Positions 1 through 8,671 of a stretch of 47,633 nt of DNA are shown here, piece by piece (position 1 is the stretch's first letter; each line of letters begins with the position of its first letter). A program made the translations under genes and the position numbers. Below the pieces are notes generated by a model, which did not search any database, had not been told where the DNA came from, and saw only the letters and a list, made by a program, of their open reading frames with translations. The stretch comes from Lactobacillus sp. MRS-253-APC-2B (GTDB taxonomy: Bacteria > Bacillota > Bacilli > Lactobacillales > Lactobacillaceae): NCBI RefSeq assembly GCF_012843675.1, contig NZ_JABAFO010000014.1, positions 1 through 47,633 on the forward strand, given 5' to 3'.

Positions 1-12
1 GGCTGGCTGCCT

Positions 13-28
13 AATAAAAATTTTTATT
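13..28. repeat. 16-bp perfect AT palindrome
   Basis: The sequence AATAAAAATTTTTATT is a perfect palindrome near the left edge. It could be the core of a terminator for a gene outside the window or a protein-binding site. Nothing else supports a function, and no gene is seen between position 1 and the end of the repressor gene at 343. Confidence 0.35.
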
Positions 29-237
29 CAGTTTACAAGTAATTAATATTCAATTCCAGCTTTTTGGGTACACACCACAGTCGATTTTTTCACCACAAAT
101 GGAGAAAGACATCCCCAACAAGTAGCAGATATTGCACTTTCGACACTTTTGCCGAAAGCAGCCGAATCCAAAACTGGATTGGTTGAAACCGACTCAAAAT
201 TGAGCCCGTTAAAACCTGAGAAAACCTGTTAAAAGTT

Positions 238-311
238 GGCCACAATTGGACAACGCAGAATCCAAAATTGGATTTTGATTGCTTGCATGAATTTGTGGCC
301 ACAATTGGACA
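238..311. repeat. Pair of 15-bp direct repeats flanking an interrupted palindrome
   Basis: GGCCACAATTGGACA occurs at 238-252 and again at 297-311, 59 bp apart. Between them lies ATCCAA-AA-TTGGAT near 260. The core AATTGGACA recurs at the other end of the element near 8091. This placement would suit arm-type binding sites of a recombinase or another element protein, but that is inference. The stretch 1-342 holds no convincing gene. Confidence 0.5.
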
Positions 312-342
312 CAAAAGCAATCCTGCCAAAAACGGCAGAAAG

Positions 343-1329
343 CTAATCATCAAAAGAATTATTATCATAGTCTTTTGGATTGTCTAAACGGTATTGAATG
401 TTATCAACTTGTTCTCTTAGGTCATATAGTTCACCTAGTATTTCTTCAAAAAGATCGGTTAATGACTCTTTAATTTCGTTGCTTTTAATTGGCTTAAGAT
501 AAGCTGCTAATGCTTTTCTTGATAGTTCTTCACTATTTGAAAATACATTTCTTGCAAGAACATTTTGAACATATGATTTAACTTTTACAGCTAATTCATA
601 GCTGCCAGCAATACCAGTTTTATATTGGTTTTCTTCAATCGTTGATAAGAAAACATAATCGTTTAACACTTTCAGATATTTATTAGCAGCCTTTTTAAAT
701 AAAGAAAAATATTTACTTTCTTCAAATGACAACCGGCCGAATACTACATTTTCAATAAAATCTAATGTATTGCTTTCTAATTCATGTATTTCATCCCTAC
801 TAAAAATAAGGTTCAAAAATTCGTGGACATCTATGCATTCGCTATTATCGATTAGTTTTTTATTTATTTTTTCTCTATCTTCTTTTGAGAAGGAATCAAC
901 GTCAGGAAATTTTTCATTACCAAAGATTTGCCAGTTATCATTACTATCATCAGTTATACCCAACGAATAAGCAGTTTTCAGAATTATATAAGAATGATCA
1001 CCAAGTTCTTCAACCATATTTATTTGATATTTATAAACTTTGCCATTCTCACAATTTTCATCTTCAAAAAATTCAGAGTCGTAATAATAGTTATGACTAG
1101 CATAAACGATTGCTAGGCTTTTAATAGCATGTTCTTTTGACCAGCCTTGACCTTGCAAATATGAAATTGGAACATCAAAATATTTCGCTAATTTTCCCCA
1201 AATTTCAGGTTTAGGATTTGTTTTTCCATTTTCATAATTATTATAAGTTCCACGCTTAACGCCTGTTTCTTGAGCTATTTCATCAAGAGTCAGGCTTTTT
1301 TGTTTTCTTAATTCTTTAAGCCTATTCAT
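343..1329 (-). CDS. XRE-family repressor with a long C-terminal domain of unknown type
   Basis: Predicted protein of 328 residues. Residues 1-60 form a helix-turn-helix of the Cro/CI (XRE) type, with the typical TLDEIAQETGVKRGTYNNYE stretch. The remaining roughly 265 residues are acidic and helical and show no S24/LexA-type Ser-Lys protease motif, so SOS self-cleavage is not expected. The ATG at 1329 is preferred over a GTG at 1338 because an AAAAGG box lies 11 bases before the ATG but only 2 before the GTG. It is divergent from the rest of the element and separated from it by three palindromic operators, the position of a master repressor (CI or SaPI Stl type). Lack of a protease suggests induction by an antirepressor or a helper-phage protein. 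Confidence 0.85.
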   Translation of the reverse strand: MNRLKELRKQKSLTLDEIAQETGVKRGTYNNYENGKTNPKPEIWGKLAKYFDVPISYLQGQGWSKEHAIKSLAIVYASHNYYYDSEFFEDENCENGKVYKYQINMVEELGDHSYIILKTAYSLGITDDSNDNWQIFGNEKFPDVDSFSKEDREKINKKLIDNSECIDVHEFLNLIFSRDEIHELESNTLDFIENVVFGRLSFEESKYFSLFKKAANKYLKVLNDYVFLSTIEENQYKTGIAGSYELAVKVKSYVQNVLARNVFSNSEELSRKALAAYLKPIKSNEIKESLTDLFEEILGELYDLREQVDNIQYRLDNPKDYDNNSFDD

Positions 1330-1351
1330 AAATAACACAACCTTTTAAGCC

Positions 1352-1357
1352 ATTATA
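1352..1357 (-). promoter_or_regulatory. -10 element of the repressor gene
   Basis: On the minus strand TGTTATAAT forms an extended -10 (TGn plus TATAAT) about 25 bases before the repressor start codon. No good -35 is seen at 17 bp, which is acceptable for an extended -10 promoter. Confidence 0.5.
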
Positions 1358-1386
1358 ACAAGCAATAAATTACGAGAAAAGCAAAT

Positions 1387-1464
1387 ATCTAAAATTATTA
1401 GACGTTGACATCTAAGAAACTTAGATATAATATCTTAAATGATCAATATCTAAGTTTCTTAGAT
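1387..1464. promoter_or_regulatory. Three-copy palindromic operator array between divergent promoters
   Basis: ATCTAAGAAACTTAGAT at 1410-1426 and its exact reverse complement ATCTAAGTTTCTTAGAT at 1448-1464 are 17-bp palindromes with arms ATCTAAG/CTTAGAT. A degenerate third copy, ATCTAAAATTATTAGAC, lies at 1387-1403. The middle copy fills the spacer of the rightward promoter, the third lies on the repressor side, and the last lies just before the ribosome binding site of the first rightward gene. The layout resembles lambda OR. Binding by the adjacent XRE protein is inferred. Confidence 0.8.
1405..1433 (+). promoter_or_regulatory. Rightward early promoter of the element
   Basis: A consensus -35 TTGACA at 1405-1410, a 17-bp spacer and -10 TAATAT at 1428-1433 drive the rightward operon. 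The 17-bp operator lies inside the spacer, so repressor bound there would exclude RNA polymerase. Confidence 0.75.
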
Positions 1465-1482
1465 TTAAAAGGTGGTGATTAT

Positions 1483-1692
1483 ATGACTGAATACATGAGT
1501 TACACGCAAGCCATGAAATATTTAGGTTTTAAATCGCGATCAGCGTTAGAAACTTATATTGCGGCTGGTTTGCCAGTAATCAAGGTTGGCCGGTCAAAAC
1601 GAATCAGCAAAACCGCAATTGACAAATTTATGGCAGAGCATCAAACAAGCACGGTCAACGCTGAATCTAAGTCAGTCAAGGAAGGGGCTTAA
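1483..1692 (+). CDS. Small helix-turn-helix protein, excisionase/AlpA-like
   Basis: Predicted 69-residue protein. Residues 3-50 look like the MerR-related HTH of excisionases and AlpA (HTH_17): YTQAMKYLGFKSRSALETYI, then a short wing with VIKVGRSKRISKTAIDKFM. The ATG at 1483 is chosen because AAAGGTGGTG lies 5 bases upstream; a longer reading from 1405 would begin inside the promoter. It is the first gene after the operator array, the place held by cro or xis genes in phages and by str/xis in satellites. It may be an excisionase, an early activator, or both. Confidence 0.75.
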   Translation: MTEYMSYTQAMKYLGFKSRSALETYIAAGLPVIKVGRSKRISKTAIDKFMAEHQTSTVNAESKSVKEGA

Positions 1693-1694
1693 TC

Positions 1695-1955
1695 ATGGAT
1701 AGTGAAGAACAAAAGAGTATTGCCGTGTTAGTTGAATCAGCAGTTAATACCGGCATTCAACGGGCTTTACATCCCCGCTATGAATGGCTGACTAACAAAC
1801 AAGTTTGCGAGTGGCTGACTATCAGCAAGACCACGCTTTACAAGTGGCGCAAGCTAGGGCTGCCATATAGCAGCATTGAGGGGATGAACGTTTACAACAA
1901 AGAACAAGTTAATCAATGGCTGCTAGAGCATAAGCAGCCAAAAGCGCGCAGCTAG
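1695..1955 (+). CDS. Second helix-turn-helix protein, excisionase/DUF771-like
   Basis: Predicted 86-residue protein starting 2 bases after the previous stop, so probably translationally coupled. Residues 30-80 contain WLTNKQVCEWLTISKTTLYK and a wing with YNKEQVNQWLLEH, the pattern of HTH_17/AlpA proteins. A GGAAGGGG box lies 7 bases before the ATG. Two consecutive small HTH proteins after the repressor is a common theme in satellites and lactobacillus prophages. Which of the two would be the excisionase cannot be decided from sequence. Confidence 0.7.
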   Translation: MDSEEQKSIAVLVESAVNTGIQRALHPRYEWLTNKQVCEWLTISKTTLYKWRKLGLPYSSIEGMNVYNKEQVNQWLLEHKQPKARS

Positions 1956-2006
1956 TCAACGGGTAGACGGCAGCACACACAAGAACATCATACGAGGTAA
2001 TTAACC

Positions 2007-2192
2007 ATGATCACGCAGATTAAAAATGATATGGCTGGCCTGATTGATACTCACGGTAAGTCAATGAGCAAACAGCAAGCTGCCTTTTGGTACGTGTATT
2101 TGAACGCGGTAATTTTCGCAGTTTTGGGATTGTATGGAGTAGCAGCATTAAATCTTTTTGAATTATACCGATACGGTAAAACTTGCTTTTAG
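2007..2192 (+). CDS. Small membrane protein, function unknown
   Basis: Predicted 61-residue protein with one hydrophobic segment at about residues 28-52 (YVYLNAVIFAVLGLYGVAAL) after a charged amino end. GAGGT lies 8 bases before the ATG. The AGAACATCA word shared with other element genes lies just upstream at 1982. Small single-pass proteins in phage early regions can act in superinfection exclusion or as holin-like toxins; nothing here decides between them, and the family is not recognised. Confidence 0.5.
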   Translation: MITQIKNDMAGLIDTHGKSMSKQQAAFWYVYLNAVIFAVLGLYGVAALNLFELYRYGKTCF

Positions 2193-2262
2193 GGGGTACT
2201 AAATCAGTACCCCCCAGCAGTCGCAACTTGCGACCCCAGTTTATTTTTAGAGGTGAAAGACT

Positions 2263-2964
2263 TTGAACACTGAGAAAATTTTGAATGCTGCCGCAAACAA
2301 GAATCTAGCCAAAGAGTTTGGCAACCCTGTTTTTTTAGGCAACGTAACCGAAGAACCATACACAACAGATGAAATTGTTGCGGCCTATTCAGGCAACAGC
2401 GTACACGCAGTTAAGAACATCATTTACAACCATAAACGCGACCTTGAAGAATTTGGGGTTTTGTCATTTGAAATGACTAAACCTAATAAGGGAACGCAAG
2501 GCGGACGGCCTACAAAAACATACAAATTCAACGAGCAGCAAGCGACCTTGCTAATGACCTATTTAGGAAATACGCCAAAGGTCAGGGCCTTTAAAAAGGC
2601 ATTAGTTAGAGCTTTCTTTGCTATGAGAGATGAAAAGCTAGAGCAAATTAAAAACCGTGCTAGGTCAATACCAGAACGCCGGACGCTTACAGACGCGATT
2701 AAGGATTGGCCTTATTGCAATAAATGGACTTACAAGGCAATTACTGACCTGATATTAAAGGCGTCAACAGGGATGAACGCGCAGCAGCTGAAAAGAAAAC
2801 GCAGCGTATCAAATGCAATGGACGGGCTAACAATTACAGAGCAGCAGACTTACAACGCAATTCAGAATGTAGTAATTGGCCTGCTTGACTTAAAACAGTC
2901 ATATCAGCAGATTAAGACGCTGCTTAATGCAATGACTGCTGGCAGTCAACCGGCAGCGTGCTAG
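2263..2964 (+). CDS. Rha-family phage regulatory protein
   Basis: Predicted 233-residue protein. Residues 20-120 match the Rha pattern: a TTDEIVAAYSGNSVHAVKNI segment, a glycine-rich GGRPTKTYKFNEQQATLLMT segment, and KALVRAFFAMRD at its end. The carboxyl part (about 120-233) is helical and basic and not recognised. Rha proteins regulate phage development and were first noted in lambdoid phages. The TTG start is supported by AGAGGTGA upstream and by absence of a better in-frame start. Rha or Ant-like proteins can counter repressors, so it could be an antirepressor. Confidence 0.75.
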   Translation: MNTEKILNAAANKNLAKEFGNPVFLGNVTEEPYTTDEIVAAYSGNSVHAVKNIIYNHKRDLEEFGVLSFEMTKPNKGTQGGRPTKTYKFNEQQATLLMTYLGNTPKVRAFKKALVRAFFAMRDEKLEQIKNRARSIPERRTLTDAIKDWPYCNKWTYKAITDLILKASTGMNAQQLKRKRSVSNAMDGLTITEQQTYNAIQNVVIGLLDLKQSYQQIKTLLNAMTAGSQPAAC

Positions 2965-3146
2965 AAAATGCTAGGGTTAATTCATATATTGACGGCTAAA
3001 TAAACAAAAAATAAAAGGCCATACCCACAAGTGGGCATGACCAGAACATCAAAACGATTATCGATCATTGAGGTATTTAAGGCCTGACCAGTTAAATTGA
3101 CGGGTCAGCCCAAATTAGGAACGCAAATGCAAGGGAGTAAACGAAA
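2965..3146. other. Intergenic stretch with two hairpins
   Basis: No gene is seen here. One hairpin lies near 3018-3042 (CCCAC-aa-GTGGG with flanking GGCCAT/ATGACC pairing) and a second near 3081-3110 (CTGACC...GGGTCAG). Neither ends in a clear T-tract. They may mark mRNA processing points between the regulator genes and the replication block. Confidence 0.4.
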
Positions 3147-3413
3147 ATGCAAGAGCAAGGATATACATTCTATTTAGCAGACGACCGCAACGGGGACAAA
3201 GCACTATTTGCCGTTAAGGGGCATTTTACCAGCGACATGGAAAAGATTGAGAATAACGGTATTCTGACCGACCCACGTTTTTTCGCTAATTACAGCGAAA
3301 CCATTAACGGCATTAAGGAAATTTTAGATCATGCTACCGTTGCGCTGCCAACGAAAGAGGAGCGTAAAAATGAAAATTCAAACACTAACCAAAGAGGAAC
3401 AACGGCTGATTAG
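3147..3413 (+). CDS. Hypothetical element protein
   Basis: Predicted 88-residue soluble acidic protein, family not recognised. A GGGAG box lies 9 bases before the ATG. Its last 44 bases overlap the next gene in another reading frame, which ties the two together translationally. The amino half (YTFYLADDRNGDKALFAVKG) looks like a small beta-sheet fold; no catalytic motif is visible. Its position directly before a winged-helix gene and the replication initiator suggests a role in replication or its control, but that is position only. Confidence 0.55.
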   Translation: MQEQGYTFYLADDRNGDKALFAVKGHFTSDMEKIENNGILTDPRFFANYSETINGIKEILDHATVALPTKEERKNENSNTNQRGTTAD

Positions 3414-3699
3414 TTTTTTACCAGCTGGAGCAGAGCGACCACGATCACAAAGCGAGCTGGCAGCCTTGTTATATGGCAATGCAAGCAATGAAAACAAGCG
3501 CAAAGTTCGCAAGCTGGTTAATCAGTCAATTTTAGACGGCGCGCCGGTAGGATCACTACACCGCAGTTATAACGCGGGCTATTTTCTAATTACGAATGAG
3601 GATGAACGACTGGCCGCCTTACAAACATTAAGAACGCAATCAAGCAGCCTGATTAAACGGGCTGACAAATTACGCAGAACGGCATTATGGACTAATTAA
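3370..3699 (+). CDS. Small winged-helix-like protein
   Basis: Predicted 109-residue protein. Residues 20-75 read as a helix-turn-helix with wing: SQSELAALLYG, then KRKVRKLVNQSILDGAPVGS and an aromatic strand NAGYFLIT. A basic helix follows. The ATG at 3370 has AGAGGAG 7 bases upstream and lies inside the end of the preceding gene. Similar small proteins with an 'ungraded choice of start conditions then GYFL' pattern occur in phage replication regions of lactic acid bacteria. DNA binding is likely; the specific role is unknown. Confidence 0.6.
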   Translation: MKIQTLTKEEQRLISFLPAGAERPRSQSELAALLYGNASNENKRKVRKLVNQSILDGAPVGSLHRSYNAGYFLITNEDERLAALQTLRTQSSSLIKRADKLRRTALWTN

Positions 3700-3763
3700 G
3701 CAACAAAAAAACCGGCTATCAGCAAAAACTGACAACCGGCACTTGCTTTAGAGGTAAAAGCAA

Positions 3764-3817
3764 ATGTTTTTTGAACATCAAAATCCAGAATTAAGGCCGC
3801 CGCCTTGTCTGGATTGA
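3764..3817 (+). CDS. Possible 17-residue peptide ORF
   Basis: A strong AGAGGT box at 3750-3755 stands 8 bases before an ATG that opens a 17-codon frame ending at TGA 3817, with three prolines near its end. The DNA inside carries the GAACATCAAAA word found elsewhere in the element. It may be a leader peptide for the next gene, or the ribosome binding site may be a relic of a deleted gene. The 200-bp gap around it holds only a GC-rich inverted repeat near 3711-3740. Confidence 0.3.
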   Translation: MFFEHQNPELRPPPCLD

Positions 3818-3907
3818 GGTATTAACCGCGTACGGGTAGGAACGCGGGCAAAGTTTTTTTAAGAACCTTACGAATGAAATTATATGACAATTAAGGGGAT
3901 GAACGCA

Positions 3908-4183
3908 ATGGAATCACCGCAGTTAGACAACTTTTTAAGAATTTTGCACGATAGCAATATTAGCAAAACGGCCCGCCTTGTATATCTAGACATCAAGGCA
4001 GAAAGCCAACTATCACACGGCGAATTTTACACCAGTGATAAATTATTAGCCGCAAAGTCTGGAGAAAGTGAGCGAACAATTGCTAGGGCCTTGCATGAGC
4101 TAGAGAAATACAATTACATCTACCGCAAAACAGTAAGAAAAGGGCTTGATATATCATCCAGAACGATCATACCGCTTAAATAA
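3908..4183 (+). CDS. Small HTH protein resembling the initiator's DNA-binding domain
   Basis: Predicted 91-residue protein, essentially one helix-turn-helix_36-type domain: YTSDKLLAAKSGESERTIAR then ALHELEKYNYI. The initiator encoded next has the equivalent YATDQHLAALFDKRRETINR and SLVKYGYI, so the two look like paralogues. Of three in-frame ATGs, the one at 3908 is chosen because AAGGGG lies 9 bases before it. As a stand-alone copy of an initiator-like DNA-binding domain next to the initiator gene, it could compete at the origin or repress the rep promoter; this is inference. Confidence 0.6.
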   Translation: MESPQLDNFLRILHDSNISKTARLVYLDIKAESQLSHGEFYTSDKLLAAKSGESERTIARALHELEKYNYIYRKTVRKGLDISSRTIIPLK

Positions 4184-4233
4184 GCAGCGAGCGCAAGCCC
4201 TGCTATATTCTGGATTGTTGTTTGCACAAAATA

Positions 4234-4262
4234 AAAAGGGCATGACCACTTTAAGCCCTTTT
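4234..4262 (+). terminator. Intrinsic terminator-like hairpin before the initiator gene
   Basis: AAAAGGGC and GCCCTTTT arms flank a 13-base loop, followed by TTG. With the A-tract on the left it could work in either direction. It would separate the regulatory genes from the replication gene, or attenuate transcription into it. Confidence 0.5.
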
Positions 4263-4293
4263 GTCTTAATCGAATTAGATAGAGGGGCTTATT

Positions 4294-5643
4294 ATGAGCA
4301 GAAATGAAGAATCAGATAAAACAGTAAAGCGCAGCAATTGGGATAGCCTGCTGCCTGCTGCCGTTCGTTATGATAGCCGGTTAAAAGGGGACACCAAAGT
4401 TTTATATAGCGAGATCCTTTTATTATCCAATAAAGCGGGCTATTGTTACGCGACTGATCAGCACTTGGCAGCATTGTTTGATAAAAGGCGCGAAACAATC
4501 AACAGGTATATTAAATCGTTAGTGAAATATGGATATATCAAAATCGAAAGTACCAGACAAGGCAAAACGGTTGTTGAACGTAAGATTTACCCGCTTACAT
4601 TGCCGAAAACATCCATTTTCCAAAATGACAAATCGGTCATATCAAGGGATAGCGCAAAACTTAGTGATCAAACAGTCACTAAGTCATTAGTTAGTGATCA
4701 AACAGTCACAAAGGTTAGTGATCAAACAGTCACTAAGGTTAGTGATCAAATAGTCACAGTAAATGACTCTAACTCTAATGACTCTAAAAAAGAATTAGAG
4801 AGAGAGCAAGAGGGGCAACAGCCCGCTGCTGGCATTTTATATAGCAACTTAACTTGGCATGAAAGCTTAGGCAGCCTAGACGGCAAACTTAAATTGCTAC
4901 TGGATAAGTATTTAACATCCCTGCCAGTTAACGTTATTCAGTATGCAATCGACAAGGCAGCCAAAAAGGACAAACTTAAATCCAGTTATGGCTATTTGAG
5001 TAAGGTTTTAGCTGACTATCAGGAAAACAACATTAACACGATTGACAAGCTGGAGAAACTGAACGCTGATAGATATAAGCAGTTGGGGATGAACCAACTT
5101 AAAGAATCAGACAAAAACAATGCTACCGCCAATGGTTTAGAGGAAAGCTCAAAATCGAGCCCTGATAATGCAAAACCTAAAACCAAGTCAATCAGTGAAT
5201 GGCAGAAAGAGCAGCAAGCTATCAGCCAACATGATATAGACGAGAACCGCAAATATGGCCTGCCTGAATGGCTTGACGCTAAAACAAGAGAATCAGAGCT
5301 TGCGACTGAAAAAGAACGAGAATCAAACAGCCTTGACGATACAGAGAGCGAAAGCAAGCAACCGGACGACAAAGCCAACAATGACAATCAGCAAGACGAA
5401 ACCAAAGTTAAAGACGGCAAGCCCGTAATAAAAGACGCTAAACGAAATAGAGAACCTAGAATGACGCAAGATGAACAGATCAATGTAGCTTTGGGAATTG
5501 CTGCTTTAAGAAAAGGCGAGCAGTTGAGCAACTATCAAATTACCTTGATTGAACGTTTTGATAACAGCGATAAAGATTTAGCGCTGCTGAGAGCATACAA
5601 AGACAAAAAAACATCCCCAACGCCAACAGCTGATCAGGGATGA
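4294..5643 (+). CDS. Replication initiator (phage replisome-organiser type)
   Basis: Predicted 449-residue protein. Residues 10-105 form an HTH_36-type winged helix (YATDQHLAALFDKRRETINR). Residues 120-160 form a linker with SDQTVTK repeated four times, encoded by DNA repeats that look like an origin. Residues 185-265 are helical, with LDGKLKLLLDKYLTSLPVNV and SSYGYLSKVL, like the second domain of DnaD-type replisome organisers. The remainder is charged and low-complexity. An AGAGGGG box stands before the ATG. Putting the origin inside the initiator gene is well known in Siphoviridae of lactic acid bacteria. No helicase, primase or polymerase gene is visible, so host replication proteins are presumably loaded. 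Confidence 0.8.
   Translation: MSRNEESDKTVKRSNWDSLLPAAVRYDSRLKGDTKVLYSEILLLSNKAGYCYATDQHLAALFDKRRETINRYIKSLVKYGYIKIESTRQGKTVVERKIYPLTLPKTSIFQNDKSVISRDSAKLSDQTVTKSLVSDQTVTKVSDQTVTKVSDQIVTVNDSNSNDSKKELEREQEGQQPAAGILYSNLTWHESLGSLDGKLKLLLDKYLTSLPVNVIQYAIDKAAKKDKLKSSYGYLSKVLADYQENNINTIDKLEKLNADRYKQLGMNQLKESDKNNATANGLEESSKSSPDNAKPKTKSISEWQKEQQAISQHDIDENRKYGLPEWLDAKTRESELATEKERESNSLDDTESESKQPDDKANNDNQQDETKVKDGKPVIKDAKRNREPRMTQDEQINVALGIAALRKGEQLSNYQITLIERFDNSDKDLALLRAYKDKKTSPTPTADQG
4661..4757 (+). repeat. Four 19-bp iterons, probable replication origin
   Basis: TTAGTGATCAAACAGTCAC occurs at 4661-4679, 4691-4709 and 4715-4733, and with one change (C to T) at 4739-4757, giving spacings of 30, 24 and 24 bp. 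Each unit has GTGA/TCAC arms. Directly downstream lies an AT-rich segment with reiterated ATGACTCTA-like units (about 4764-4790) that could be the unwinding region. The first ten bases of the unit recur once at 6782-6791. Binding by the initiator's HTH domain is inferred. Confidence 0.8.
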
Positions 5644-5666
5644 ACGACACCATGCAATTTTAGCCG

Positions 5667-5693
5667 TGTAAAAAGACCATACAGACGTTTTAC
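5667..5693. other. Hairpin after the initiator gene
   Basis: TGTAAAA and TTTTACA arms enclose a 13-base loop shortly after the initiator stop codon. There is no T-tract. It may act as a weak terminator or protect the 3' end. The rest of 5644-5800 holds no gene. Confidence 0.3.
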
Positions 5694-5800
5694 ATGAGTT
5701 AGGTATAAATACCCTACTAGGCAATTACATTTTGAATTTTGCCAGTACGGACTGAGTGCAGATAAAAATAAGAGCAAATTACAAGGGAGTGAATGACATC

Positions 5801-6139
5801 ATGGCAGTTAAAAATGAATCATGGACAACTAGCAGTCTTGAAGAACGCGAAACGATAATCAGTTATGACCGGTTATTAGACCGCTGGCATATCTGGACGG
5901 ACGAGCCAAAACACGCGCGCAAATATGAAAAATATATTGACGAGCAACAGCCAACACGCAAAGGCTACAATCCAAAAAACGGCCAGCTGGTAATGTTAGA
6001 GGGAGATTTAATAAACGTGAATGTAATTATCACGAAAAAGAGGACTTACAAAATGACACCAGAGCAGAAAGCAGAGAAAGCCAAAATTTTGTTAGAAATC
6101 AGACAACGAAATCAGAAAAAAGAAACTCAAATGATTTAG
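5801..6139 (+). CDS. Hypothetical element protein rich in aromatic and basic residues
   Basis: Predicted 112-residue protein, family not recognised. The ATG at 5801 follows a GGGAGTGA box by 8 bases. The amino half contains SYDRLLDRWHIWTDEPKHAR, suggesting a small mixed alpha/beta fold. The carboxyl third is a basic helix (MTPEQKAEKAKILLEIRQRN) that could bind nucleic acid or oligomerise. It lies between the initiator and two other unknown genes, where phage satellites often carry interference or accessory functions. No function can be assigned from sequence alone. Confidence 0.55.
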   Translation: MAVKNESWTTSSLEERETIISYDRLLDRWHIWTDEPKHARKYEKYIDEQQPTRKGYNPKNGQLVMLEGDLINVNVIITKKRTYKMTPEQKAEKAKILLEIRQRNQKKETQMI

Positions 6140-6155
6140 CGGGTAATTATACCCG
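6140..6155. other. Short hairpin CGGGTA-ATTA-TACCCG
   Basis: A 6-bp perfect stem with a 4-base loop immediately follows the stop codon of the preceding gene and ends before CAAAAAC. It is too weakly followed by T residues to be a good terminator. Confidence 0.3.
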
Positions 6156-6224
6156 AAACAAAAACAAGGCGCTTAGAACGCAATTATGGACGATATACGA
6201 GGTACAGAAAGAGGACTAACAGCA

Positions 6225-6701
6225 GTGAAGAACATAATCGAATATCCATCCCTTGTTGAACAGGCTTACGGCATGCTACTAAGTCAAGGTATTACCAACG
6301 TTAGCAAGCTGGCACTGTTTAATGAGCTGGTAAAAGAGAATCTATTAGATACGAACGGCCAGCCTACCAAGAAAGCCATTAAAGAGGGCTATATTAAGAA
6401 ATACAGGCGGGACAATATGAGCCCAATTAAAAAATTTAAATACGATTATCCACGCTTTGCATTTTTGCCTGACAGCTATTTTAAAGTCGATCATGGCGCT
6501 ATTGCTATCAGTCTTAGAGGGATAGCCCTATATATTCAACGACTGACAAGGGATGAACAAGTTACTGAGAAAGAATTACACGAGGGCCAGCAGCTGCTTA
6601 ATGACTGGATAAAGGAAAACAAGAACCCAACTCAAAAGCAGCAAAGACTAATCCAGAATCTTAAATTTGAGCTGAATTACAAACTGGCACTATTAAAATA
6701 G
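6225..6701 (+). CDS. Hypothetical protein with a KilA-C-like segment
   Basis: Predicted 158-residue protein from a GTG at 6225 with AGAGGA 9 bases upstream; an ATG at 6186 would add 13 residues but has no ribosome binding site. The segment LALFNELVKENLLDTNGQPTKKAIKEGYI resembles the carboxyl KilA-C domain of phage antirepressors (a helix, 'LL', then 'PTxKAxExGY'). This is a visual resemblance, not a confirmed match; that stretch is at about residues 28-56. The carboxyl half is a helical, glutamine- and lysine-rich region. If the resemblance holds, it may act on a repressor. Confidence 0.5.
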   Translation: MKNIIEYPSLVEQAYGMLLSQGITNVSKLALFNELVKENLLDTNGQPTKKAIKEGYIKKYRRDNMSPIKKFKYDYPRFAFLPDSYFKVDHGAIAISLRGIALYIQRLTRDEQVTEKELHEGQQLLNDWIKENKNPTQKQQRLIQNLKFELNYKLALLK

Positions 6702-6765
6702 CAGTGCAAAATAAGCCAGAATTGCACCGCAAAAGAACATCAAAATCAGAAAGAGGTAGAACATC

Positions 6766-7293
6766 ATGAGATTAATAAAACTTAGTGATCAGCATGGCCA
6801 CGCATTACGATATGACTATCACACGGCACTAAAAGGCATTAAGAGCCTATATAATTACGAGCTTACGCAAGGCGACAAGCGTTTGAATGATATTGCTAAA
6901 ACCATGCTGCCGCTGCTAGGCCATGACCTTAATAACATCAAAGCCTGCTATTGGCTTGTATTGAGCCTAAAAAATGGCGTATATCAGAAAGTAATGGACT
7001 TACTGGCATTAAATGGTGATACGTTCAAAACATTGTCAGCGGTTGAAAGACTGGACACGATTTACAGAAATACAAAGAGCAAAAAGCGAACCGTTAGCGG
7101 TAAGAGCCTAGCAGCCTTACAGTTAACACAACGTCAATCAATAGCAGTTCAGAGAGCCAATGACCTTTTAGCCAATACGGACGAAACAAACATTGCTGCT
7201 AATCTATTGCGGGCTATGGTAAGCGGTCAGCTGGACAAAATAAAAACCCCGCTACCAGCAGGCAACGGGGAAAAATTTAAAATTAAAGCATAG
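6766..7293 (+). CDS. Hypothetical helical protein before the ArpU-like gene
   Basis: Predicted 175-residue, mainly helical, basic protein of unknown family. AGAGGTAG lies 8 bases before the ATG. Its start overlaps one copy of the AGAACATCA word, and its second line of DNA carries a lone TTAGTGATCA half-iteron at 6782-6791. No catalytic motif or membrane segment is visible. A GC-rich hairpin (CCCCG/CGGGG) is embedded in its last codons at about 7249-7272. It ends just before a strong terminator, so it closes the operon. Role unknown. Confidence 0.55.
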   Translation: MRLIKLSDQHGHALRYDYHTALKGIKSLYNYELTQGDKRLNDIAKTMLPLLGHDLNNIKACYWLVLSLKNGVYQKVMDLLALNGDTFKTLSAVERLDTIYRNTKSKKRTVSGKSLAALQLTQRQSIAVQRANDLLANTDETNIAANLLRAMVSGQLDKIKTPLPAGNGEKFKIKA

Positions 7294-7298
7294 TAAGC

Positions 7299-7355
7299 AA
7301 AAAGCACGCCTAATTATAACACTTGTAGCAGCTTATAAGTGTAACCGTGCTTTTT
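7299..7355 (+). terminator. Strong long-stem terminator
   Basis: AAAAAGCACG and CGTGCTTTTT form the base of a long stem, with a second internal stem ACACTT/AAGTGT. It is followed by GTTTTG. The symmetric A- and T-tracts make it possibly bidirectional. It separates the early operon from the ArpU-like gene. Confidence 0.8.
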
Positions 7356-7384
7356 GTTTTGAGTTGAGTTAAGGGGATGAAACT

Positions 7385-7819
7385 TTGGGAGTATTGTTTA
7401 AAACAAAACCGGTAGATAAAGTAAAGACCGGCGCAAACGTTAGAGCCTTTTTTAAAAATGACGTGCAAGAATTGCAAGCAATGGCTGGCAGAAAACTAAC
7501 CGGCTTTATTACATCCCCAAACTTAACCAAGACTGGCAGCAGCAACCACGCAATCAATGGCATTGAATCATGCTATTTAGAGGCAGTTAATGCTGACCAA
7601 GAATTAGAAACCATAGCGGCAGCCATTAACACGTGTAGCGAAAAAACTAAAAAGATAATTATCATGAGGTGCATTGAAGAACGGCCACACCGACAAATGG
7701 AGGAATATTTTTGCCTTAGCAGGTCGCAATATGGCTTGTATCAACAAAAGGCCCTTTGCGAGTTTGCCGAAAATTATGCTAGATACGGCAGAGAATTAAG
7801 AGTATTTGCTGAAAACTGA
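7385..7819 (+). CDS. ArpU-family late transcription regulator
   Basis: Predicted 144-residue protein from a TTG with AAGGGG 8 bases upstream. The middle and end (ETIAAAINTCSEKTKKIIIM, then RQMEEYFCLSRSQYGLYQQK) match the sigma-70 region 4-like helix-turn-helix of ArpU/RinA-type phage regulators of packaging and lysis genes. In phages this gene is the last of the early block and is followed by terminase and structural genes. Here only a terminator and non-coding repeats follow, so its normal target operon is missing. It may act in trans on a helper phage or be a leftover of one. Confidence 0.75.
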   Translation: MGVLFKTKPVDKVKTGANVRAFFKNDVQELQAMAGRKLTGFITSPNLTKTGSSNHAINGIESCYLEAVNADQELETIAAAINTCSEKTKKIIIMRCIEERPHRQMEEYFCLSRSQYGLYQQKALCEFAENYARYGRELRVFAEN

Positions 7820-7845
7820 ATTAGTTGTTTGAAAATGTAGGAATT

Positions 7846-7880
7846 AAAAGGGATCGGCGTTTTACCGACCCCCTTTTTTT
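7846..7880 (+). terminator. Terminator after the ArpU-like gene
   Basis: AAAAGGG-at-CGG pairs with CCG-ac-CCCCTTTT across a 6-base loop and runs into seven T residues. This is the last transcription stop of the element. Confidence 0.85.
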
Positions 7881-8200
7881 GCTGCCAGTGAGATAAGATC
7901 AAAATTGAGCCTATCTTGTTAACTAATGTTAACCTTAAACGCTAAAAGCTAGAAAATCAGAGGATCAAACGCAATGAAAAGCAGTAGCCGCTTATAGTTG
8001 ACCATTCATGTTTGATAAAGTCCAACATAGACAAGCGAAAATGAATCCAGTATTGGTTTTATCTATTTACCATGATTGACTTGGACAAAATTGGACAAAA
8101 CGGCCTTTTTACAAATTGGATGAAAGACATCAAGGCTTGGCAGAGCGATCATTTTCTCAACATATTGGGAAAAACGCCGCTTAAATGAGTCTAAATGTTA

Positions 8201-8228
8201 ATTCGACAGTCGAAAATTCGACAGTCGA
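8201..8228. repeat. Tandem 13-bp palindromic boxes
   Basis: ATTCGACAGTCGA occurs at 8201-8213 and 8216-8228, 15 bp apart. Each contains CGAC-a-GTCG, an odd-centred palindrome, so a dimeric protein would find two adjacent sites. No promoter is evident next to them. Confidence 0.65.
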
Positions 8229-8487
8229 GAAAATGGAGAGCCCAAAAATGGACTATCAAAAGCCCAGATCAAAATTGAGCGCGGCAGACCCGTAATTGCA
8301 TTTAAACGCTGCCTGATTGTGAAACTTAAAAAACCTAAAATCAGCGCCTAGAATTAGACAATATCAAGCAGCAAATGGCCGTTTTCAAGGGATGAATAAC
8401 AGCTAACAGTTCCTTGCTTACACAAAATAAAAAAGGCTGCTGCCGGCAACCTTGAAATGATATTCTTTTGAGTGCCGCCGTCAAAAC

Positions 8488-8521
8488 GTCAACAGAAAAA
8501 GTCAACAGAACGTCAACAGAA
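8488..8521. repeat. Three short iterons GTCAACAGAA
   Basis: The ten-base unit occurs at 8488-8497, 8501-8510 and 8512-8521, at 13- and 11-bp steps, i.e. roughly on one face of the helix. They lie about 150 bp from the presumed right boundary. Confidence 0.65.
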
Positions 8522-8671
8522 ATTAGAGTTCATATCAGCAAGCCTAAAATCAAGAATGCTGATATATCAACGATTGCGGGCCTTGACTGACAACCAAAAT
8601 ATCATGATAATAAATGTAAGTTAATTGAAAGTAATTTATATTTCGTTGCATCGGATGGAGGGGTGAGTCCG

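Follow-up and report, generated by a model that had tools for sequence, protein, structure and literature searches.

Copied small-terminase gene sequences in a phage satellite of Limosilactobacillus as candidate packaging sites

How an element with its own replication genes and no recognisable structural genes could be packaged is the question raised by the left end of the window analysed here, the whole stretch of 47,633 nucleotides from Lactobacillus sp. MRS-253-APC-2B (contig NZ_JABAFO010000014.1, referred to as C6 and taken from its first base). The host genome comprises 1.98 Mb in 54 contigs and is 99.9% complete. Positions 77 to approximately 8630 of the window were confirmed as the segment of a phage satellite responsible for regulation and replication, in which no structural genes were matched (Pfam, PHROGs, and phmmer with phage reference genes), nor any lytic genes in the same family scans. 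The original prediction for this DNA had missed the most informative feature of the element, namely its copied packaging (pac) signals. These copies suggest that it is quite probably a Limosilactobacillus satellite similar to the phage-inducible chromosomal islands (PICIs), packaged by hijacking helper phages through the copied pac sites.

Copies of terS sequences in the element

Four pac-like sites, all on the + strand, were found in the element. Site A (7916 to 7944), with the sequence GTTAAC-TAAT-GTTAAC, was identical over 29 of 29 nt to a stretch inside the small terminase gene (terS) of IMGVR_UViG_2630968579; it was first seen as a short match of the element tail to two other genomes and was placed inside terS. 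Its 23-mer TTGTTAACTAATGTTAACCTNAA occurred in three viral contigs and three genomes and lay within terS in all six, some of these genes being near copies of each other. In two Limosilactobacillus records (L208 and L209) the site A stretch was flanked by the sequences that also flank it in G020 and G023; as the latter two are genomes of the host's genus, this genus is taken to be Limosilactobacillus. Site B (211 to 229), AACCTG-AGAA-AACCTG, matched 19 of 19 nt inside the terS of G046, and both IMG/VR matches of this 19-mer were in terS, at the same aligned codons. Site C (2952 to 3001), which contains TGCTAG-AAAA-TGCTAG, is a partial copy that begins within the last codons of rha and reached a score of 20 over 50 nt with codons 46-62 of the terS of G136. 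Sites A, B and C correspond to different terS alleles and to the same terS codons (approximately 46-62), with about 20-50 nt each. The weaker site D (8081 to 8128, TTGGACAAAATTGGACAA) resembles the 5'-end of a second terS subfamily, and a similar stretch is present in C7, a sister element in the same genome.

A tag, TCAAAATTGAGC (194 to 205, + strand), precedes site B, and further exact copies were found at 7899, ahead of site A, and at 8269. The window element has three copies, C7 has two, and none was detected in 160,110 b of chromosome. No viral matches were obtained for the stretches that follow the tag at 8269 and the tags of C7, so that a tag is not always followed by a recognisable site. 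C7 also carries the tag and the flanks of site B without the site B insert.

When the window regions were shuffled (60 rounds for sites A and B, 80 rounds for C and D), the true score was never reached for site A (0/60), B (0/60) or C (0/80). The sites were also tallied by comparing 33 terS genes with 40 loci lacking structural-gene matches (293,542 b); these were the 41 of 48 loci compared that had no such match, less L118, which was left out because no element gene was recognised in it. At a score of at least 17, 16 matches fell at terS codons 45-58 (in 12 loci) and none elsewhere, and at a score of at least 16 there were 21 at the terS site versus 4 elsewhere. In the control, which was limited to 160,110 b of the own-genome chromosome and smaller than the satellite set, the matches at the site and elsewhere numbered 0 and 1 (at least 17), 1 and 2 (at least 16) and 1 and 10 (at least 15). 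Eight of the 33 terS (L205-L210, L230 and L231) had been fetched because they hold the site, and L160 and L192 are the same gene; with the eight and the duplicate removed, the 24 terS left gave 15 matches at the site versus 0 elsewhere at a score of at least 17 (15 versus 1 with L118 back), and these genes include close relatives and hence are not independent. A total of 53 terS were collected, 22 of other types being left out of the site tests, and those from L232 onward were not added. The tails of C7 and G003 were considered as main-type terS sites and rejected, being no better than shuffles; G003 has a site with a score of 18 elsewhere in its element.

When 50 genomes were searched for the pattern AACCTRNNAAAACCTR, 15 of them had it, with 17 matches in all, versus 3 for the reversed pattern. 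Five were in terS (G001, G007, G041, G046 and G048), ten in eight satellite-type elements (the window, G014, G009 twice, G017, G018 twice, G025, G029 and G030) and two elsewhere (G021, unclear; G038, near phage tail genes). All ten satellite-type sites faced the late direction, as read from gene maps by eye. G014 was called an element by its ArpU gene alone, the integrase match of G030 is 74 aa long, and one protease and one lysin match were present in the stretches of G017 and G018, outside the span from integrase to site.

The direct repeat inside terS

The terS site is often a direct repeat of the form hexamer-N4-hexamer whose letters vary between alleles, the hexamers seen being AACCTG or AACCTA, GTTAAC, TGCTGA, TGTCGG and AAATGG. 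Across 31 terS, it was in the 10-codon windows of codons 46-57 that identical residues were most often encoded by identical codons (a share of 0.617 from codon 48 and, at best, 0.626 from codon 50; median 0.454). Six of the 31 had been chosen for this stretch and hence the comparison was repeated with 24 unselected terS, in which the best share was 0.611 from codon 46 and that from codon 48 was 0.602 (rank 3 of 154; median 0.439). Similarity between 6-nt words at a lag of 10 nt peaked at codon 48 in 33 terS (0.857 versus a gene mean of 0.261, z 6.4), and the values in the 24 unselected genes were 0.840 and 0.262 (z 6.4). The exact repeat was present at the terS site in 22 of the 33 genes, with 4 positions elsewhere in them, and in 13 of the 24 unselected ones. 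Since a lag of 10 is not a multiple of 3, the repeat cannot derive from a repeated peptide.

Among 31 terS of this type there were 22 exact 6-mer repeats at lag 10, versus 5, 5, 1, 2 and 2 at lags 7, 8, 11, 13 and 14. No comparable excess at lag 10 was found in TerL, portal, capsid, ArpU, initiator or tape-measure genes; at the same lags, integrase genes gave 5 versus 3, 0, 0, 2 and 3 and other terS gave 6 versus 2, 0, 3, 4 and 0, all of which are small numbers. The terS of the staphylococcal phage phi11, of the genus Dubowvirus, has TGTTAA-GAAA-TGTTAA at a similar peptide stretch (LLRNVNV codons).

In a test free of terS, exact 7-mer repeats at lag 10 formed 102 clusters in 350,688 b of satellite-type DNA, versus 26, 35, 49, 36 and 23 at lags 7, 8, 11, 13 and 14, and 13 versus 4, 11, 13, 11 and 3 in the 160,110 b of chromosome. 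The 46 loci of this list included six fetched by pattern (L249-L251 and L253-L255); without these and the window, the 39 loci left (284,978 b) gave 85 versus 20, 31, 35, 32 and 18. Lags 9, 12 and 15, which are codon multiples, were raised in both satellite-type DNA and chromosome. Four direct repeats at lag 10, of differing sequence, were observed within about 130 bp beside the ArpU gene of G014 (L185:7483-7610), looking as if they formed an array of packaging sites.

Genes, edges and relatives of the element

The repressor gene is on the - strand (343 to 1338); its N-terminus matched the helix-turn-helix (HTH) family HTH_3 and no Peptidase_S24 was found among its Pfam matches at E<=0.1, in agreement with the repressor without a visible S24 protease described originally. 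The features that follow are all on the + strand. A divergent control region (1405 to 1469), recognised from its sequence and an inverted repeat, contains a TTGACA...TATAAT promoter-like sequence (1405 to 1431) overlapped by the palindrome ATCTAAGAAACTTAGAT, and a second palindrome, ATCTAAGTTTCTTAGAT; both palindromes are likely to be operators. Domain scans identified two small HTH_17 proteins, one of them Xis-like (1480 to 1692, with a TIGR01764 excisionase domain below its cut-off; 1695 to 1955). Downstream are a 61-aa protein (2007 to 2192) similar to a 63-aa protein of C7 that itself has a relative in the G003 element, the Rha regulator (2263 to 2964; PF09669, phrog_2657), a phrog_2113 protein (3370 to 3699; PHROGs), an HTH_36 protein (3884 to 4183; Pfam) and the replication initiator, with HTH_36 and DnaB_2 domains (4294 to 5643). 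A repeat search found four 29-nt repeats within the initiator gene (4655 to 4761), which are likely to be iterons of an origin located inside this gene. The two small HTH genes, the Rha-like regulator and the element's own initiator had thus been correctly predicted, as probably had its origin; for the KilA-C-like regulator proposed with them, no KilA-C match was obtained in the domain scans.

Three genes between 5801 and 7293 had been described as of unknown function. This held for the last of them (6766 to 7293), without a family match in Pfam or PHROGs, whereas the other two belong to PHROGs families that have no assigned function, phrog_1709 (5801 to 6139) and phrog_25006 (6186 to 6701), the latter with relatives in many Lactobacillaceae. 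Their suggested role as helper-interference genes found no backing in PADLOC, which returned one weak match (PtuB, E=0.005, 6766 to 7293). The last gene (7385 to 7819) codes for the anticipated ArpU-family regulator (TIGR01637, 48.9 bits versus a cut-off of 43.1; phrog_248). A link between window positions 7842-7873 and an Ant gene was dropped, as it looks like a terminator match.

Relatives of this ArpU were found in 129 of 396 genomes of the family. The four nearest (two in G000, one each in G014 and G003) had E<=5.4e-33 and the next one 5.1e-22; therefore the closest relatives of the window ArpU belong to other elements of this type. Among 20 ArpU neighbourhoods fetched, TerL was present in 16, all but one of which also had TerS; in L195, L197 and L200 an integrase and replication genes were present and a terminase was not, and L185 was a short contig. 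The ArpU search of viral contigs gave four loci, which later served as sources of terS.

The start of the element, previously set at position 1, should be moved to 77, since positions 1-76 are the end of a multicopy insertion sequence that lies outside the satellite, unique DNA beginning at about 77. There are seven further genomic copies of this end, every one at a contig end, six of them identical over 75-77 nt and the seventh 94% identical over 89 nt. Because it sits here at the contig start, the integrase side of the window element is missing and the window alone cannot show an absence of genes leftward. Following the element leftward to an integrase, as the original prediction had proposed, did not succeed, the left flank and the integrase of the window copy not being found in the search of the host genome. 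Positions 115-182 are identical to C7 DNA about 105 bp ahead of the C7 integrase start, so that the insertion sits roughly 60-70 bp before the expected integrase start. These 68 identical bp (C7:38338-38405, just before the integrase), in comparison with 67-84% identity in the other matching DNA, could reflect either recent exchange or strong constraint. Seven PF00589 matches were found in the genome, C7 included, and no second integrase like that of C7, three other matches being 27-29% identical to it. Given the insertion sequence before the integrase start and the lack of a second C7-type integrase in this search, the window copy may not excise alone and may have lost its own excision ability; the C7 integrase might act on it in trans.

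The right end was placed near 8630, the point from which the sequence resembles chromosomal DNA of G003 and G027. Shortly before it, on the + strand, are GTCAACAGAA-type repeats (8484 to 8522), also present in C7, which are possible integrase arm sites, and the motif AATGCTGATATATCAACGATT (8540 to 8576), probably an attachment-site arm common to many elements of the genus. With variants, this motif was observed near tRNA- or tmRNA-like 3'-ends in other genomes of the genus (L017, L019, L026, L046, L047 and L048). The complete window element is expected to measure about 9-10 kb, and no near DNA matches to it were found in phages and plasmids.

C7 measures 8.8 kb and has a dipeptidase gene on one side and a nuclease gene on the other (gene names read from the sequence); it is flanked at both ends by the 15-bp repeat TTTAAAAACGAAAAA, which is located at the end of the dipeptidase gene. 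Its genes are an integrase, a repressor, two HTH genes, the 63-aa protein, Rha, three small genes, phrog_2113, the initiator, phrog_25006 and ArpU, and no structural genes were matched in it; the PICI gene order, with the integrase beside the repressor and the excision and replication genes opposite, is present in full. Identity with the window element was 68% for the initiator, 69% for Rha and 42-51% for ArpU, phrog_25006 and phrog_2113, and the two repressors shared a weak HTH match only, as expected for different immunity. The predicted absence of late genes stands for the element itself, where none was matched; to its left, where the window does not show it, the absence is likely by analogy with C7. 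The satellite reading proposed at the outset was supported by this layout without structural genes and by the one terminase search of the host genome, which gave only a weak phrog_2 match (22 bits); the proposed lifting of repression by a helper would be compatible with it. As no convincing helper prophage appeared in that search, the helper may have to come from outside. Two further integrase-primase elements, L140 (C12:143000-162999) and L141 (C23:68000-87999), were observed in the same genome, with no terminase matches.

Relatives of phrog_25006 were present in 38 of the 396 family genomes and in 14 of 40 genera. We mapped 43 loci by phmmer with a reference set of phage and satellite genes, and many had an integrase, a repressor or HTH or Rha gene and phrog_25006, and no structural genes. 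The phrog_25006 match was the sole one in 12 of the loci L090-L129 and in L133, L118 showed none, and a few others carry single phage matches. L133 (OR846637, Enterococcus phage Efs 1-1-1, 16.7 kb) is an unannotated 'phage' record, possibly a satellite. Searches with two-row alignments, which make a poor pattern, yielded a single distant viral locus and no genome contig for the initiator, and no viral contig for Rha. L101, L103, L110 and L113 have an integrase, HTH genes and phrog_25006 in common with the window element and differ from it in continuing into HNH, TerS, TerL and portal genes and a capsid or protease gene of their own. They are possible capsid-forming satellites of the Lactobacillaceae, resembling capsid-forming PICIs.

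Alternative explanations and a possible packaging mechanism

Elements of this type share with Gram-positive PICIs the integrase and repressor on one side, divergent xis and replication genes, a small size and the absence of structural genes. PICIs are typically about 15 kb in size and their attachment sites are not known to be occupied by prophages. The window element differs from PICIs in its expected size of about 9-10 kb, in ending with an ArpU-family gene and in having pac-like sites of several terS alleles. In place of a terS, some PICIs are reported to have the pac or cos of their helper (PMC6092414, PMC9006064), and the pac-like copies at 7916, 211 and 2952 appear to be a signal of this kind. 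The Streptococcus thermophilus satellites (StCI) are described as 7-20 kb long, with an integrase, regulatory and replication modules and no structural genes, and two putative cos sites are reported for them (PMC13376191); the size of C7 and that expected for the window element are inside that range, and the main text of that paper was found to make no mention of ArpU, Rha or DnaD. The pac of P22 is reported as a 22-bp sequence inside terS (PMC9611059), and that of SPP1 as a region with direct repeats that spans the start of the small terminase gene (PMC4737164). The sites proposed here, which we know from sequence only, differ from the P22 and SPP1/SF6 ones in being a hexamer-N4-hexamer with allele-specific hexamers. 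Dubowvirus is reported to package by headful, and packaged plasmid concatemers to start within terS of a related phage with which the plasmid had recombined at terS (PMC12323379); given that recombination, this is only a hint that packaging starts there.

Several observations weigh against packaging through these sites and against the proposed repeat. Site D lies in terS for three of seven IMG/VR matches and its score was reached by 1 of 80 shuffles. The exact repeat was missing from the site in 11 of the 33 terS (11 of the 24 unselected), and similarity at lags 11 and 13 peaked there too, at lower values (0.527 and 0.545). The tally became even at a score of at least 15 (29 at the terS site versus 29 elsewhere), L118 has a match with a score of 20 at terS codons 140-148, off the site, 28 of the 40 loci had no site at a score of at least 17, and for 12 of the 40, with a phrog_25006 match only, the satellite nature is not established. 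According to our own reading of the maps, 4 of the 21 sites at a score of at least 16 (one in L096, three in L116) oppose the late direction. C7 has no main-type terS site at a score of at least 16; the scores of the C7 tail, the C7 left region and the G003 tail were reached by 15, 56 and 59 of 60 shuffles, and that of the C7 match to the second terS type by 2 of 80. Finally, the low local sequence specificity reported for the HTH motifs of SF6 TerS (PMC4737164) speaks against a simple hexamer code.

It could also be considered that the element is a degenerate prophage, that is, an early region left after deletion of the late genes, with terS-like pieces that are remnants of its own terS. The order of the early genes and ArpU resembles that of full phages such as Lv-1 and phiadh, and an insertion sequence lies at the edge of the element. 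However, C7, which has a similar order, 42-69% identity in five aligned protein pairs and its own flanking repeat, has no late genes either, and the same is true of L195, L197, L200 and the satellite-type elements of the pattern scan. Remnants of one gene would hardly amount to sites A, B and C, three terS alleles in three places, of some 20-50 nt each and from the same codons, and no prophage joining the same early region at high identity to terS and late genes was found among the phage, plasmid and genome matches, so that we consider such an origin very improbable.

The matches to phage terS, together with the interference of PICIs with their helpers (reported in PMC6092414), would also be compatible with sites that act as decoys titrating helper TerS or as RNA that pairs with terS mRNA. 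This appears unlikely, because sites A-D lie on the same strand and 10 of the 10 sites of the genus run in the late direction, as expected of directional packaging, because transcription of the element tail would yield RNA of the same sense as terS, and because the conserved feature is a DNA repeat at 10 nt within terS itself; decoy action could nevertheless coexist with packaging. The common 12-nt tag ahead of sites A and B, and the tags and repeats near both element ends, might indicate that the sites are bound by a different protein, either a regulator or a host factor, with binding sites in terS as well. With at most one mismatch over 11 nt, however, the tag was absent from the nine phage loci checked and from the G003 and G014 satellites, and the repeat varies with the terS allele, which indicates TerS as its reader; the chance that another protein is involved seems to us minimal.

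If the element is packaged through its copied pac sites, the repressor would hold the divergent promoter at 1405-1431 shut via the palindromes until a helper protein lifts repression, and the satellite would then replicate from its own initiator and origin. The TerS ring of the helper would bind one hexamer-N4-hexamer site, the half-sites of which lie one helical turn apart and would match neighbouring HTH domains of the ring, and this binding would set off the headful filling of helper capsids with satellite concatemers. The spacing of adjacent HTH motifs in TerS rings is reported to be about one B-DNA turn (PMC4737164); two equal half-sites that lie 10 bp apart and co-vary between alleles fit this geometry. 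An element with sites for TerS of several specificities would have more helpers to choose from, and ArpU may, as a weak suggestion, act on late transcription of the helper or the satellite. Among the titles and abstracts listed for satellites or PICIs of lactobacilli and Limosilactobacillus, ArpU and pac sites, none reported this motif and, as far as these show, the combination within one small satellite of terS-internal copies from several alleles, together with an allele-specific repeat, is new.

How the small terminase of pac phages recognises its own genome has been described as unclear (PMC4737164). Judging from the sequences compared here, there may be about an even chance that satellites of the Lactobacillaceae in general are equipped with panels of pac sites suited to TerS of several specificities, and that TerS of this type reads in its own gene a hexamer-N4-hexamer code that changes with it, which would make the helper range readable from the sequence of a satellite. 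A repeat of fixed spacing and allele-varying letters that satellites have copied provides candidate recognition sites for many phages at once and, if this is true, the helpers of a satellite would be predictable from its sequence in a bacterial family used in food.

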